Assembly: GCA_016177845.1 (NCBI GenBank)
Contig: JACOUO010000001.1
Coordinates: 1 to 64,000 of the forward strand
Length of the DNA stretch: 64,000 nucleotides
Source of the DNA: Deltaproteobacteria bacterium
GTDB lineage: Bacteria; Desulfobacterota; GWC2-55-46
Direction: 5' to 3'
This document shows positions 478 to 41,614 of this stretch, piece by piece (within the stretch, counting starts at the first letter, position 1; every line of letters begins with the position of its first letter). A program made the position numbers and the translations under genes. The notes below the pieces were generated by a model. It saw only the letters and a list, made by a program, of their open reading frames with translations, was not told the origin of the DNA and did no database searches.

Positions 478-1440
478 CTAATCTGTTAAGATATTATTCT
501 TTTTCAAACGATTCACAAATGTTCTGAAGGTTTCAGGATCTTCCTGAATACGTAATCCACTTGCCTCAAGCAGGTCCATAAGTTCATTGTTCTCAAGTCT
601 GCAAAGCCCTAATTTCCAGAAAGAAATGAGTATCAAAATCAACTCACCATATTCAATATCATGCGCTAATGGGTCTTTCCCTATCGCCTCTGCCAAGCTT
701 TGAAAAAAATCCGCTTCACCTGAAAACTGAGCTTTCCTGATCCGTTTGCGAACCCAATCCAAATCAAAAAGAGTTTTGTTTATCTGTATAGCCTTAAAAA
801 GAGAATCGTCATTTCCTTTTCTTGCTTCCTCTATAAGTTCTTTTAATGGTCTCTTATGGGTAAGCTGGGATACAGTGTCATATATCAAAGATAATGAGGT
901 CTTTAATATATGTTTTCTGTTAACCTTAGTGGGCTTATTTATATTTGGCTTCTTAAGGTTCCAATATCCTTTTAACCCAGCCATCAGCAATAATACGGCC
1001 AAGTCTCTCGTCTGCTCTTTATTCAATTTCAAATCTTCTTTTAAAGCTCTTGCTGAACTAGAGGCTTTCATTTGTTTTTCAGCCTCAAAGAGATTAAATT
1101 GCCTTATGTAATAAGCCTTGCTCTCGGATGGTAACCCCTCAAGAATTTTTAATATCGACTTTTTTAAATTACTCTCCGAAAGATTTGCTACATATTTGAT
1201 GTCATTACTGACTCCGAATTGCTTAAAATCCTGTAACGCTTTTTTATTGAGGTTGGATTTACTTTGTTCGATCAAAGAGGGAAAGCCCTTAAGTTCCATG
1301 AACCTGAAAGAGTCATCATCAAGAGCTACGAAGCCTGAATTTGTTGGAAGATGACAGAGTTCGAGGAAGTTTCTATAGATTCTTATGAGTTCGTGGAAAT
1401 ATGGGTAGATTTTTGATTTCCAGTTATTTTTTTTATGCAT
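478..1440 (-). CDS. Unrecognised 320-aa protein
   Basis: This is a lysine-rich, predicted mostly helical protein with no signal peptide or clear membrane segment. A moderately hydrophobic patch (ELILILISFWKLGLC) lies near residue 255. I do not recognise a domain. It is AT-rich like the rest of the island and is followed by its own terminator, so it is a single-gene unit on the strand opposite to the RT/AbiGi pair. An ATG at 1440 is used. The upstream sequence has no strong Shine-Dalgarno. A role in defence is possible only by position. Confidence is for the gene being real. Confidence 0.7.
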   Translation of the reverse strand: MHKKNNWKSKIYPYFHELIRIYRNFLELCHLPTNSGFVALDDDSFRFMELKGFPSLIEQSKSNLNKKALQDFKQFGVSNDIKYVANLSESNLKKSILKILEGLPSESKAYYIRQFNLFEAEKQMKASSSARALKEDLKLNKEQTRDLAVLLLMAGLKGYWNLKKPNINKPTKVNRKHILKTSLSLIYDTVSQLTHKRPLKELIEEARKGNDDSLFKAIQINKTLFDLDWVRKRIRKAQFSGEADFFQSLAEAIGKDPLAHDIEYGELILILISFWKLGLCRLENNELMDLLEASGLRIQEDPETFRTFVNRLKKNNILTD

Positions 1441-1973: not shown

Positions 1974-4058
1974 TTGGATAAATTATATAAAAAAATGTGT
2001 TCTTATGAAAATTTAGAATTGGCCTGGATTCGTGTAAAGACTTCACAGAATATCGGATACAAAAATTATTATAGAAATTTAATTCTTGCCTATGAACTTT
2101 CAGTTAAAGAAAATCTCCAAAGATTATCGGAAAGGCTAAATGGTGGCTCTTTTAAACCTAAAGAAGTTTTAAGATTTTATTTGCCAAAATCCTCAGGATT
2201 GCACAGACCTATAACGTTGTTGCATCTTGATGACTTGATAGTTTATCAGGCAATGGCAAATTTAATTGCTGATAAATTTTTAAAAAAGAGAAAAGAAGTA
2301 GAATTTAATACTATCTTCAGTCATATTTTAAATGAGAATAAACAAACACAAATTTTCTTTTTTAAAAAATGGCAAGAAGGATATAGAAAATTTCTGCAAC
2401 AAATTAAAAATTATTATAAGGATAAGAACGTTTGGGTTGCTCATTTTGACCTAGCTGCTTACTATGACACCATTGACCACTATGTATTAGCAAACCAAAT
2501 AAATAGAAAGGTATACAAAGATTTTACCGATTTATTTCTGACTTGTTTACAAGAATGGAGCACTCACAAGCAACACAAATTAACTCATGGTCTGCCACAA
2601 GGTCCGAATCCTTCTGGTCTACTTGCGGAAATTTATTTATTGCCAATCGACATTAAGCTTACAAAAACTGGAGTGAAATTTGTTCGATATGTTGATGATA
2701 TAAAAATTTATGGAAAATCAAGAGAAGAGGTCTTGGCTGGAGTAATACTTCTTGAGAACGAATGTAAAGAACGTGGGCTAATACCTCAGTCAAAAAAATT
2801 TGAAGTTATAAAGGCGGAAAGTTTAGAGGCTGCAATTGGGAAAACTCCCAGTATGCAGTCAAGCGAAAAAAAGATTATTCTTTCTGACCCAATAGAAACA
2901 TATCGAATGTTCAAAAAAGCTTTTGATAAAAATGAATTTGATATTTCAAAAATAAAATACATTTTAAAAGTTTCTGGCAAAAATCGAAAAATTTTAGACT
3001 TCATTTTAAAAAATATTAGTCACTATCCGGATTTATCAGACGAATTTTGCCAATTCTTAGAAAATCATATAAATGATAAAGATATAGGGAATAGAATATA
3101 TCAGTCATCACTCCAACAAATATCTCCATATATATATGCTGAAGGAAAATATTGGGAATTGATTGCACGTTGTGATTTTAAGAAAAGTGAAAAAGTACTT
3201 TTGTTGAATAAAGCAATTGAAAGATTAAAGGATGGAAGCTCTTACAAATATCCCTTGAAGCTGGGATTGTACAAATTCATCTGCTCTTCAAATAATTCTC
3301 TTATATTGGAATGGCTCAAGAGAGAAAATTCAGCATTGATTCAAGCATTCATTGTTCCATACATCCCAATAAATAATATCACTAAAGAAAAATATGTAGA
3401 TTTAATGCGTGTGCTATTTAAACGGTCAGATTATGAACCGGCTTTAGCATGCATAAAAGAACTTATCTATAATTTTAAAATGAGTGCTCTTGATGAAATG
3501 TCAGAGTTAAATAAGGATGACTCCGGTGTTATAAAAAATACTTTGGGAATGCCCGAAATGATAGATTCTATCGGCCAGATAATTAAAAACAGATATGAGA
3601 TTGCATATTGTGATAAATGGATATCTTTATTAGGTTCTGAGTACAATCATGCCAATGAAGTTATTTTTTTGGCTGATAATGCCTTTAATATAGATAGAAA
3701 TGCTTGGGTAAATTATACAGACTCTTTCAATGAAATTATAATAAGAAAATTTATATCTTTATTGGAAGTAAAAAGACTAGGTATTAAATGGCCAAAAATG
3801 ATTAATAGAATTGGCGAGAATGTCGATTTCGGGGTTTTAATGGTTAAGAATAATCAACTGTTTATAAATTTTCCTATAATAATTGATGGCTTTAAATTTT
3901 TACATGAAAGGAGAAGCAAAACTCCTTCTTCACATCCTTATGATAAAAAGACTAAAAAACAGACATCTATCGTAACTGGGAAAGAACAAAAGGAATTACA
4001 AAAAAAATTGGTACTAAGTTATGATACGTTAGCCAATGAGTTAAATAAACTACTTTAG
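1974..4058 (+). CDS. Reverse transcriptase of the Abi/DRT (unknown-group) type
   Basis: The 694-aa protein has an N-terminal reverse transcriptase domain. RT blocks 1-2 read RFYLPKSSGLHRPITLLHLDD (about 67-87). Motif A is HFDLAAYYDTIDH with the catalytic Asp at 159, motif B is GLPQGPNPSGLLAE, and motif C is YVDD at 239-242. The roughly 400 residues after the fingers/palm look helical and repeat-like, as in the alpha-helical repeat domains of AbiA/AbiK-class RTs. This differs from retron RTs (about 300 aa, with an msr-msd) and from group II intron proteins (no maturase/HNH seen). TTG at 1974 is the start, since an in-frame stop precedes it. ATG at 1995 would cut conserved-looking sequence. It is 88 bases upstream of, and co-directional with, an AbiGi-like gene. 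Antiphage function is inferred from family and context. The exact DRT/UG class is not assigned. Confidence 0.9.
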   Translation: MDKLYKKMCSYENLELAWIRVKTSQNIGYKNYYRNLILAYELSVKENLQRLSERLNGGSFKPKEVLRFYLPKSSGLHRPITLLHLDDLIVYQAMANLIADKFLKKRKEVEFNTIFSHILNENKQTQIFFFKKWQEGYRKFLQQIKNYYKDKNVWVAHFDLAAYYDTIDHYVLANQINRKVYKDFTDLFLTCLQEWSTHKQHKLTHGLPQGPNPSGLLAEIYLLPIDIKLTKTGVKFVRYVDDIKIYGKSREEVLAGVILLENECKERGLIPQSKKFEVIKAESLEAAIGKTPSMQSSEKKIILSDPIETYRMFKKAFDKNEFDISKIKYILKVSGKNRKILDFILKNISHYPDLSDEFCQFLENHINDKDIGNRIYQSSLQQISPYIYAEGKYWELIARCDFKKSEKVLLLNKAIERLKDGSSYKYPLKLGLYKFICSSNNSLILEWLKRENSALIQAFIVPYIPINNITKEKYVDLMRVLFKRSDYEPALACIKELIYNFKMSALDEMSELNKDDSGVIKNTLGMPEMIDSIGQIIKNRYEIAYCDKWISLLGSEYNHANEVIFLADNAFNIDRNAWVNYTDSFNEIIIRKFISLLEVKRLGIKWPKMINRIGENVDFGVLMVKNNQLFINFPIIIDGFKFLHERRSKTPSSHPYDKKTKKQTSIVTGKEQKELQKKLVLSYDTLANELNKLL

Positions 4059-4146: not shown

Positions 4147-4899
4147 ATGAGTACAATTAGTTCAGACACACTTTTTCACTTTACTGGTTCAGCGGAAGAT
4201 TTAATAAATATTTTTAGAAATGAGTTTTATCCAAGATACAGTCTGGAGACTGTACGAGAGTTAGCAAATGGCAAAAAGGTTGATATTGCTGTTCCAATGG
4301 TTTGTTTTTGTGATATTCCATTATCTAAAATAAAAAATCATCTTAGTACATATGGTTATTATGGAATTGGAATGTCTAAAGAGTGGGCAAAAAAAGTTAA
4401 GCTTAATCCAGTATTGTATTTAAGAAGTGGCTCAGACTTAGAAAAATATTTAAAAATACTTCTTATTGATTTAGTAAAAAAAGATAAAATGGAAAAGGAA
4501 ATTGGGGCTGCGCTAAAGGCAGCCACTAATTTGCTCGGTTATATAAAGCTATATGAAGGTGATTTTTTAAGAAATGACACTGTAATTAAAAATGTTAAAT
4601 TTTATAATGAGAGAGAATGGAGATATGTTCCAGAGATGCCAGGAGAGGAACTACCATTTTTATTGCGTGAAGAATTTGAAAATCCCGTTACAAGAGCACA
4701 GGAAAATGTTAAGCTTCAATCGACGAAGCTTAGTTTTGAACCTAAAGATATAAAATATGTCATAGTTAAAGAGGAAAAGGAAATATTAGCAATGATGAGA
4801 GCTTTACAGCAAATTAAATCTAAAAAATATGATAAGGATACTGTTGAGCTTTTAACATCCAGAATTATAACTTCTGAACAAATAACTAAAGATTTTTAA
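4147..4899 (+). CDS. AbiGi-like abortive infection protein
   Basis: The 250-aa protein matches my memory of the AbiGi family (PF10899). It has LFHFTGS near the start, then EFYPRYSLE, IAVPMVCFCDIPLS, H..YGYYGIGMSKEWA, and a later FYNEREWRYVP segment. In Lactococcus AbiG, AbiGi is the partner of the nucleotidyltransferase AbiGii and is annotated as an antitoxin. Here no AbiGii gene follows. Instead the reverse transcriptase sits directly upstream. The RBS AGAGGAAGAGAAGG precedes ATG 4147. The protein is cytoplasmic with no signal or TM segments. I infer that it works with the RT as regulator or second component. It could also be an independent orphan. Confidence 0.75.
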   Translation: MSTISSDTLFHFTGSAEDLINIFRNEFYPRYSLETVRELANGKKVDIAVPMVCFCDIPLSKIKNHLSTYGYYGIGMSKEWAKKVKLNPVLYLRSGSDLEKYLKILLIDLVKKDKMEKEIGAALKAATNLLGYIKLYEGDFLRNDTVIKNVKFYNEREWRYVPEMPGEELPFLLREEFENPVTRAQENVKLQSTKLSFEPKDIKYVIVKEEKEILAMMRALQQIKSKKYDKDTVELLTSRIITSEQITKDF

Positions 4900-6557: not shown

Positions 6558-6601
6558 CTTTCACGGCGGTAACCGGGGTTCGAATCCCCGTGGGGACGCC
6601 A
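6558..6601 (+). other. 3' half of tRNA-Glu(TTC): island attachment site
   Basis: The stretch begins CTTTCACGGCGG (anticodon loop with TTC and 3' anticodon stem), continues GTAACC, a canonical T-arm GGGGTTCGAATCCCC, acceptor strand TGGGGAC, discriminator G and CCA. No D-arm, 5' acceptor or 5' anticodon stem lies upstream. The preceding bases are unrelated. This is what a tyrosine-recombinase integration into the anticodon loop leaves at the distal end. The intact tRNA-Glu should lie beyond the other end of the island, outside this window. It is not a functional tRNA by itself. Confidence 0.85.
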
Positions 6602-6756
6602 ACAAAATCAAAGGGTTACGGCATTTGCTGTAGCCCTTTTTTATTTAGTCCCCACATGGGATGAGAACCCCTGTTCGACAAATTTGCAGGATTGCAAATT
6701 TGCACTTTTGAGCGGAGCGAAAAGCCCGAAGGGTCGAGTCCATGGATGGACGAGAT
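6582..6756 (+). repeat. tRNA-tail repeat unit 1 (175 bp)
   Basis: The unit runs from the tRNA-Glu tail GAATCCCCGTGGGGACGCCA through a hairpin terminator, a degenerate inverted copy of the tail (GTCCCCACATGGGATGAG...), and a structured core (GCAGGATTGCAAA, AAAAGCCCGAAGGG, GTCCATGGATGGAC) to the next tail copy. It is repeated nearly identically from 6757. The core is shared with 41440-41570 next to tRNA-Arg. Confidence 0.9.
6613..6642 (+). terminator. Hairpin terminator behind the tRNA-Glu tail
   Basis: GGGTTACGGCA and TGCTGTAGCCC pair (with one GU/mismatch region) around a short loop, followed by TTTTTTATTT. A second copy lies at 6788-6818 in repeat unit 2. It is probably the native terminator of tRNA-Glu, duplicated with the tail. 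Confidence 0.8.
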
Positions 6757-6951
6757 GAATCCCCGTGGGGACGCCAACAAAATCAAGGGGTTACGGCATT
6801 TGCTGTAGCCCTTTTTTATTTAGTCCCCACATGGGATGAGAACCCCTGTTCGACAAATTTGCAGGATTGCAAATTTGCACTTTTGATCGGAGCGAAAAGC
6901 CCGAAGGGTCGAGTCCATGGATGGACGAGATGAATCCCCGTGGGGACGCCA
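6757..6951 (+). repeat. tRNA-tail repeat unit 2 plus a third tail copy
   Basis: Bases 6757-6931 repeat 6582-6756 with only one or two differences (for example CAAAGGG versus CAAGGGG, GAGCGG versus GATCGG). They are followed by a third copy of the tRNA tail at 6932-6951. After it comes unrelated sequence containing a long-loop AGCCGTAAT/ATTACGGCT hairpin with a T-run (about 6960-7015). Apart from that hairpin I see nothing in 7016-7255. Confidence 0.9.
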
Positions 6952-7259
6952 ACAAAAAATAGCCGTAATTCATTGAAAAATGCAGTAAAATAAAGGTATT
7001 ACGGCTTTTTTAATTTCTCTGAATGTTAAGATAAGGGATATTTAGGGATTAAAGGGTATAGTCCTTTTTATAGTCCTAAGCGTGAAAAAGTGAAAATCTT
7101 TAGTAGTTTTTATAGTAATTTTTCAGAGCTATTCAGGCTTGAGTTCTGATTTTTTATGAAGATGTTAAACGCTGTTGTTGAGGCCTTTTTTTTGTGCAAA
7201 AAACTAAACAAACAATATTTTTTATAATCTGCTAACCTCCTGATTTTTCAGCTACTTTC

Positions 7260-7485: not shown

Positions 7486-7521
7486 GCAGTATCGGGCGGC
7501 TCTTGAGCCGCCCGATACTGC
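7486..7521. terminator. Perfect 16-bp hairpin after the small TM gene
   Basis: GCAGTATCGGGCGGCT and its exact complement flank a CTTG loop. A long T-tract is lacking, so it is either a weak terminator or an RNA-stabilising hairpin between the small gene and the porin. Confidence 0.6.
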
Positions 7522-41354: not shown

Positions 41355-41614
41355 TGGTGCGCCTGATCATCCGTCAGGCTTAAATAAAAAAAGGAGGCAG
41401 GCACAAGGCCTTCCTCCTTTTATAATCTATGGTGCGCCTGACTGGATTCATCTCGTCCATCCCTGGACTCGCCCCTTCGGGCTTTTGCGTCTGCGCCGCA
41501 AAAGTGCAATTTTGCTATCCTGCAAAATTGTCGAACAACTTTCAGAGGTTCTCATCCGTCAGGCTCAGATAAAAAAAGGAGGCAGGCACAAGGCCTTCCT
41601 CCTTTTATAATCTA
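41355..41614 (-). repeat. tRNA-tail repeat unit beside tRNA-Arg
   Basis: Read on the minus strand from tRNA-Arg: terminator (41606-41571), degenerate inverted tail (GCCTGACGGATGAGAACC), the same core as at 6650-6755 (TTCGACAA, GCAGGAT-GCAAA, AAAAGCCCGAAGGG, GGATGGACGAGATGAATCC). Then comes a second tRNA-Arg tail with CCA at 41430, a second copy of the terminator (41421-41385) and a third short tail remnant ending at 41355. The unit length tail to tail is 185 bp. Confidence 0.88.
41571..41606 (-). terminator. Terminator of the tRNA-Pro/tRNA-Arg transcript
   Basis: On the minus strand AAAAGGAGGAAGGC-CTTGT-GCCTGCCTCCTTTTTTT forms a strong hairpin with T-tract immediately after the tRNA-Arg CCA. 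A second, nearly identical copy is at 41385-41421. Confidence 0.88.

Follow-up and report, generated by a model that had tools for sequence, protein, structure and literature searches.

tRNA-linked repeats (TLRs) have been known in E. coli since 1978 and, to our knowledge, have no accepted function. E. coli has 22 TLR genes at ten loci; in each gene, 18-19 bp of the 3' end are identical to the end of the upstream tRNA or rRNA; RrA, RrB and RrF are transcribed with the stable RNA and processed (PMC8144298). In a pull-down with RrB, CsrA was the most enriched protein, the KD of RrB-CsrA binding is around 100 nM, and changing GGA 1, 2 and 5 of RrB to UUU abolishes the CsrA shift (PMC8144298). The 19 tRNA-operon TLRs were predicted to lack CsrA binding, the effects of deleting rrA,B,F were only modest, and such binding was judged to be special to the three rRNA-linked copies (PMC8144298, 2021).

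Repeat units in the window

The window analysed here, a stretch of 64,000 nucleotides from a Deltaproteobacteria bacterium (contig JACOUO010000001.1), carries repeat units beside two tRNAs. The features are as follows, with scores from the models R1 and R2:

6558..6601 (+): 3' half of tRNA-Glu(TTC), from the anticodon loop to CCA, non-functional as a tRNA gene; same as the intact gene on contig C10 from 6558 onwards
6610..6639 (+): terminator T1, between tRNA tail and unit 1; 13-bp stem and T tract
6649..6776 (+): predicted TLR unit 1, consisting of antisense 5' arm, H1, H2 (loop AGGAUU), H3, H4 (CCCGAAGGG), H5 (loop AUGGAU) and the 19-nt tRNA-Glu tail; R1 120.2 bits and R2 106.5 bits, with this unit in the training sets of both models; fold z -4.3
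6758..6776 (+): first copy of the duplicated tRNA-Glu tail, AATCCCCGTGGGGACGCCA
6785..6814 (+): terminator T2, from the terminator scan
6824..6951 (+): predicted TLR unit 2, tail at 6933-6951; 99% identity with unit 1
6956..7011 (+): probable terminator T3, inverted repeat I3 followed by a T-rich stretch; missing from the terminator scan output that lists T1 and T2
41355..41379 (-): core-deleted 25-nt hairpin remnant, its 5' arm fused to the tRNA-Arg tail (GCCTGACGGATGATCAGGCGCACCA), seen in the sequence
41430..41565 (-): predicted TLR unit 3' of tRNA-Arg, with the exact 19-nt tRNA-Arg tail; R1 135.3 bits, R2 108.4 bits
41615..41691 (-): intact tRNA-Arg(TCT)

Beside the tRNA-Glu fragment there are two direct repeats of 175 nt each (6582-6756 and 6757-6931), which are 99% identical, and the 26-nt tail is present a third time at 6932-6957. 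Per unit, the tRNA-Glu end is followed by a terminator, the 5' arm, the core and a repeat of the last 19 nt of tRNA-Glu. The Glu 5' arm is a degenerate reverse complement of the T-arm and acceptor (GTCCCCAC-AT-GGGAT-GA-GAACCCC vs GTCCCCAC-G-GGGAT-TC-GAACCCC). The Arg unit is built alike, with 185 nt from one tail to the next, and the genome holds a further unit at tRNA-Asn(GTT) on contig C23 as well as a decayed Asn-derived copy. The intact arrangement of a tRNA with a unit directly downstream is kept at tRNA-Arg and tRNA-Asn, whereas the Glu units follow a 3' tRNA fragment. No intact tRNA-Glu was called by ARAGORN near 6582. An earlier note on this DNA had described a recurring design beside tRNA-Glu (two units of 175 bp) and tRNA-Arg (one of 185 bp); the repeats and their periods stand, but the intact tRNA-Glu at 6582 does not. 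Its proposal of a common core is borne out by core matches of 120-135 bits for the Glu and Arg units, which were themselves included in the model, and by folds better than those of 200 shuffles.

Homology to the E. coli repeats

As judged from their sequence, the units are TLRs and homologues of the E. coli repeats rtT/rttR and rrA/rrB/rrF. R2, a covariance model of 20 units (alignment A3) without any enterobacterial sequence, finds the E. coli rrB TLR between the two rrnB terminators at 2e-11 and the four E. coli rtT repeats at 1e-10 to 3e-9. The best match after these, which is background, has only 2.6; E-values of such models are rough owing to a short calibration. Besides this core homology, the unit tails are identical to the 3' end of their own tRNA in 19/19 positions for Glu, Arg and Asn, with the copy starting in the T-loop. 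The earlier note knew of no named element of this design; the TLR class is one, both its rrB and its rtT type being found by R2.

Like the E. coli TLRs, including RrA, RrB and RrF, the units sit 3' of a stable-RNA gene, past its terminator, and their 3' end copies the end of the host gene. The similarity extends to rrB having GGA in the same two apical loops. In the E. coli tyrT-tyrV operon, 178-bp repeats have the same design as the 175-bp repeats of the window, and rtT/RttR (RF00391) shares tandem units, a 19-nt tRNA tail, a similar hairpin layout and the motifs GGATGAGAA, TTCGAC and CCCGAAGGG. Unlike RrA, RrB and RrF, the units of this genome lie at tRNA-Glu, -Arg and -Asn rather than 5S rRNA, in a deltaproteobacterial host; unlike the E. 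coli TLRs, they have a 5' arm antisense to the T-arm and acceptor. The rtT loops, unlike those of the units, are without GGA.

RF00391 gave zero matches at the Rfam gathering score in the window or its genome. This family is narrow and gave no match at any non-E. coli locus tested; an R2-type model reaches far more widely. For the core, no other Rfam family was retrieved at gathering or permissive thresholds; weak matches to BjrC68, CsrC and mascRNA fell on terminators or the T-arm. No previous report of TLRs in this lineage or at these tRNAs was found in the literature searched, although reports outside Enterobacterales may exist.

Predicted RNA structure and covariation

The Glu and Arg units are predicted to fold into a closed multi-branch structure, in which the 5' arm and the tail form the outer helix around hairpins H1-H5. 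Fold stability lies above that of all 200 shuffles for each unit (z of -4.3 for Glu and -4.8 for Arg). In an alignment of 85 distinct units, which was fitted to the tested structure and is biased in its favour, standard pairs occupy 96.1% of pair cells vs 69.4% in shuffles, two-sided changes number 455 vs 143, and the covariation score is 0.650 vs 0.161, with slid controls at 0.04-0.08. An independent MAFFT alignment shows two-sided changes in 14/21 pairs.

While the stems vary, the GGA of the H5 loop (C-ANGGA) is invariant in 20/20 aligned sequences, and the base 5' of it is free to vary (AGGGAT, ATGGAT, AAGGAT, ACGGAT). Among the 67 tRNA-linked units described below, 57/65 have GGA in the H5 loop, a motif absent from the collection pattern but carried by the models. 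H2 reads AGGA or GGGA in most units, a count biased by search patterns some of which required the H2 motif. In the window units, unit 2 like unit 1, the GGAs of both loops are predicted to be unpaired with a probability of 0.98-1.0. The stem covariation and the conserved GGA loops point to selection on the RNA.

Distribution and match to the host tRNA

The core is carried by 26/97 genomes when the genome of the window and its relatives are considered. Among the matches listed in a scan of a wider collection are deltaproteobacterial MAGs, Desulfuromonadales, Idiomarina, Microbulbifer, Aeromonas, Lysobacteraceae and others; matches in Streptomyces look like chance, as they fall in coding sequence. 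In a sample of Gammaproteobacteria, the class of Idiomarina, 64/143 genomes have matches at 1e-5 or better. For the best matches in 40 of these 64, a same-strand tRNA or tmRNA lies within 700 nt upstream in 35/40 and its tail is matched at 15/19 or better in 28, both counts being biased upward by the training of R2 on tRNA-linked units. The host tRNAs met are Glu, Arg, Asn, Lys, Ser, Pro, Asp, Ala, Gln and Tyr. Units were also seen 3' of tmRNA genes (L178 at 755-1254 (-), L295, L148 and L219), so hosts are not confined to tRNA genes.

The match to the host was evaluated on 67 units that have a tRNA or tmRNA upstream; they were kept if their end was tail-like, identity to the own tail not being required. 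Over the variable 11 nt of the tail, the units match their own tRNA at 9.9/11 positions vs 4.1/11 for other tRNAs, and the summed own-tail match is 662 vs a maximum of 396 in 2000 permutations. A first arm test on the whole tail was weak because AATCC is common to most tRNAs, and it was redone on the variable part: the arm duplex with the own tail has a mean of -11.9 kcal/mol vs -9.3 kcal/mol with others (Wilcoxon p 1.3e-6), yet the own tail is among the top 10% for only 21/67 arms. Nearly every unit thus follows the own-tail rule, while the antisense arm is frequent without being a constant feature. This agrees with two statements of the earlier note, namely that the ends match the host tRNA and that the 5' arm is a degenerate inverted copy of the own tail. 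Its suggestion that the unit captures tRNA 3' ends found no support here.

Two other arrangements were observed. Head-to-tail arrays of the core alone, with a 71-81 nt period and no intervening tails, occur in L112 (6112-6240), L166 (5398-5511) and L245. In L028, L055, L095 and L091, a second module stands 5' of the core or replaces it behind some tRNAs; this module consists of GGGATTCGAA-GCG and, after it, hairpins that contain GGA, and it likewise opens with an antisense T-arm.

Putative link to CsrA

In the Csr/Rsm family, the fuller motif is ANGGA in a C-G-closed hexaloop. The canonical CsrA motif is a stem-loop that carries GGA in its loop (PMC8144298). When the GGAs of rrB are counted along the sequence, numbers 2 and 5 fall in H2 and H5 by our own assignment. 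The two nearly unchanging hairpin loops suggest that the units may take up the global regulator CsrA. The genome of the window has csrA, as do 23/26 unit-bearing genomes vs 30/71 without units (Fisher p 5.5e-5, uncorrected for phylogeny). Within the family of the window, units are present in 15/22 genomes with csrA vs 0/8 without it (p 0.002, likewise uncorrected). Against this reading, rtT is a true homologue and has no GGA in its loops; the negative prediction for the 19 tRNA-operon TLRs and the modest deletion effects in E. coli also count against it. So does one relative, G034, whose genome is rated 100% complete: its core copies are strong and keep their GGA loops (L100 and L101), yet it gave no csrA match; no tRNA was called near these copies.

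Like CsrB/CsrC and RsmY/RsmZ, the units have GGA in hairpin loops (ANGGA). Unlike the units, those RNAs have their own promoters and many GGA hairpins (about 18 in CsrB), whereas the units have two GGA loops, a tRNA-derived end and no above-threshold Rfam match. A promoter-like site was looked for beside the window units and none was found.

Overall, the units probably give rise to RNAs by read-through of tRNA transcription; these would have a tRNA-like 3' end and would bind CsrA outside E. coli as well. This reading draws directly on the homology, the structure, the tail identity, the covariation and the conservation of GGA. Each unit would be a multi-hairpin RNA of ~130 nt lying 3' of a stable-RNA gene and its terminator, and it would be made by read-through of that terminator. 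Pairing of the 19-nt tail copy with the 5' arm would create a tRNA-like 3' end, so that the unit could be excised and trimmed by the tRNA maturation machinery. The unpaired GGAs of the H2 and H5 apical loops would then most likely bind CsrA in this clade, and tRNA transcription might therefore supply a modest CsrA sink. If the units do bind CsrA, tRNA production would be tied to CsrA control.

Beyond the three copies of E. coli, the data indicate that GGA hairpins, and with them probably CsrA binding, are general to the TLR class. More tentatively, and with slightly more doubt than belief, TLRs might be an ancient CsrA-sequestering family, found in the lineage of the window and in Gammaproteobacteria at many tRNAs and tmRNA, that couples stable-RNA transcription to the Csr regulon; GGA-less rtT would then be a derived exception, and the core would also have spread in some genomes in REP-like palindromes. 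Given how widely the units occur and that two GGA loops are conserved, a general and testable claim can be made, namely that the stable-RNA operons of many bacteria carry a built-in CsrA ligand.

Dispersed copies and alternative explanations

The core is not strictly bound to tRNAs. In relatives such as G004, G015, G022 and G027, most of the core copies examined lie away from them. The earlier note had regarded core copies mostly away from tRNAs as evidence against its proposal; this is indeed the situation in several relatives, many of the copies being in REP-like palindromes, but the own-tail match holds over the 67 units. Around the core, deltaproteobacterial relatives (L044-L050, L056-L063, L086-L097) show palindromes of the type TGTCATTCTGAG..core..AGAATCTC or CATTGCGAG..core..GCAATCTC. 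A literature search on these palindrome sequences found nothing, and a model search found no palindromic core copies in the genome of the window.

These dispersed palindromes in some relatives resemble REP elements or REP-associated palindromes. The core could therefore be REP-like mobile DNA inserting in the T-loop palindrome (GGTTCGA^AATCC) and similar palindromes, the tRNA match then resulting from the way targets are chosen. In the set examined, at least 27 of the 89 matches other than E. coli tyrT lie in TGTCATTCTGAG..core..AGAATCTC, at the equivalent point CGA^A(G)AATC, and single genomes can hold many copies (34 at most). This explanation is nevertheless unlikely. Unlike REP elements, the core is a multi-hairpin RNA with covariation, and its covarying stems and conserved GGA loops indicate selection at the RNA level; the model search found no palindromic copies in the genome of the window; and plain insertion alone leaves unexplained a 5' arm that fits the acceptor of each tRNA.

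Another possibility might be a tRNA processing or quality device, the antisense arm either pairing with the tRNA tail in the primary transcript or offering RNases a decoy 3' end, and the core being a spacer. Pairing of the arms is indeed stronger with the own tail than with foreign ones, the tail copies the portion recognised by 3'-end processing enzymes, and RNase E has been suggested to recognise the copied end (PMC8144298). Since the own tail falls within the top 10% for only 21/67 arms, and since a spacer would not retain covarying hairpins and GGA loops over such distances, a processing device appears distinctly unlikely, and CsrA-binding read-through RNAs remain the preferred reading.

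A probable integrated element at tRNA-Glu

Contig C10 carries an intact tRNA-Glu(TTC) with a tyrosine integrase gene just 3' of it, and the window is near-identical with C10 from 6558 through the terminator to about 6640. Because of this identity, 6558-6640 is read as the attR of an integrated element, the first 6.56 kb of the window as the far end of that element, and the two Glu units as the original downstream neighbours of the intact tRNA-Glu(TTC). On this reading, the Glu units are separated from their promoter by the integrated element. tRNA-Glu(CTC), with an intact gene on C9 and an attR plus a truncated (decayed) unit on C16, appears to have undergone the same kind of integration.

With integrated elements at two tRNA-Glu loci and units on the attR side, the units might be taken for decoy integrase attachment sites or scars of repeated integration at the tRNA. 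This is very improbable and was rejected: units also occur in E. coli rRNA operons, and the att identity begins at the anticodon loop and extends over 83 bp (6558-6640), while only the last 19 nt are copied in the units. A functionless, ordinary tandem duplication is scarcely credible, since the 99% identity of units 1 and 2 is as expected of a recent duplication but the covariation and the core homology, from the lineage of the window to E. coli, point to long-term selection.

Some further observations concern this region. Both tRNA-Glu genes of the genome have apparent integration sites at the anticodon loop, with a TLR left on each attR side. The end of the element encodes a UG19-type defence reverse transcriptase (DRT; 1974-4058 (+), 4.6e-146), followed by an AbiGi-family protein (4147-4899 (+), 6.1e-54), and this pair is likely an anti-phage defence cargo of the integrated element. 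Further downstream, at 7486-7521, the window contains a perfect 17-bp inverted repeat with a 2-nt loop (GCAGTATCGGGCGGCTC/GAGCCGCCCGATACTGC).
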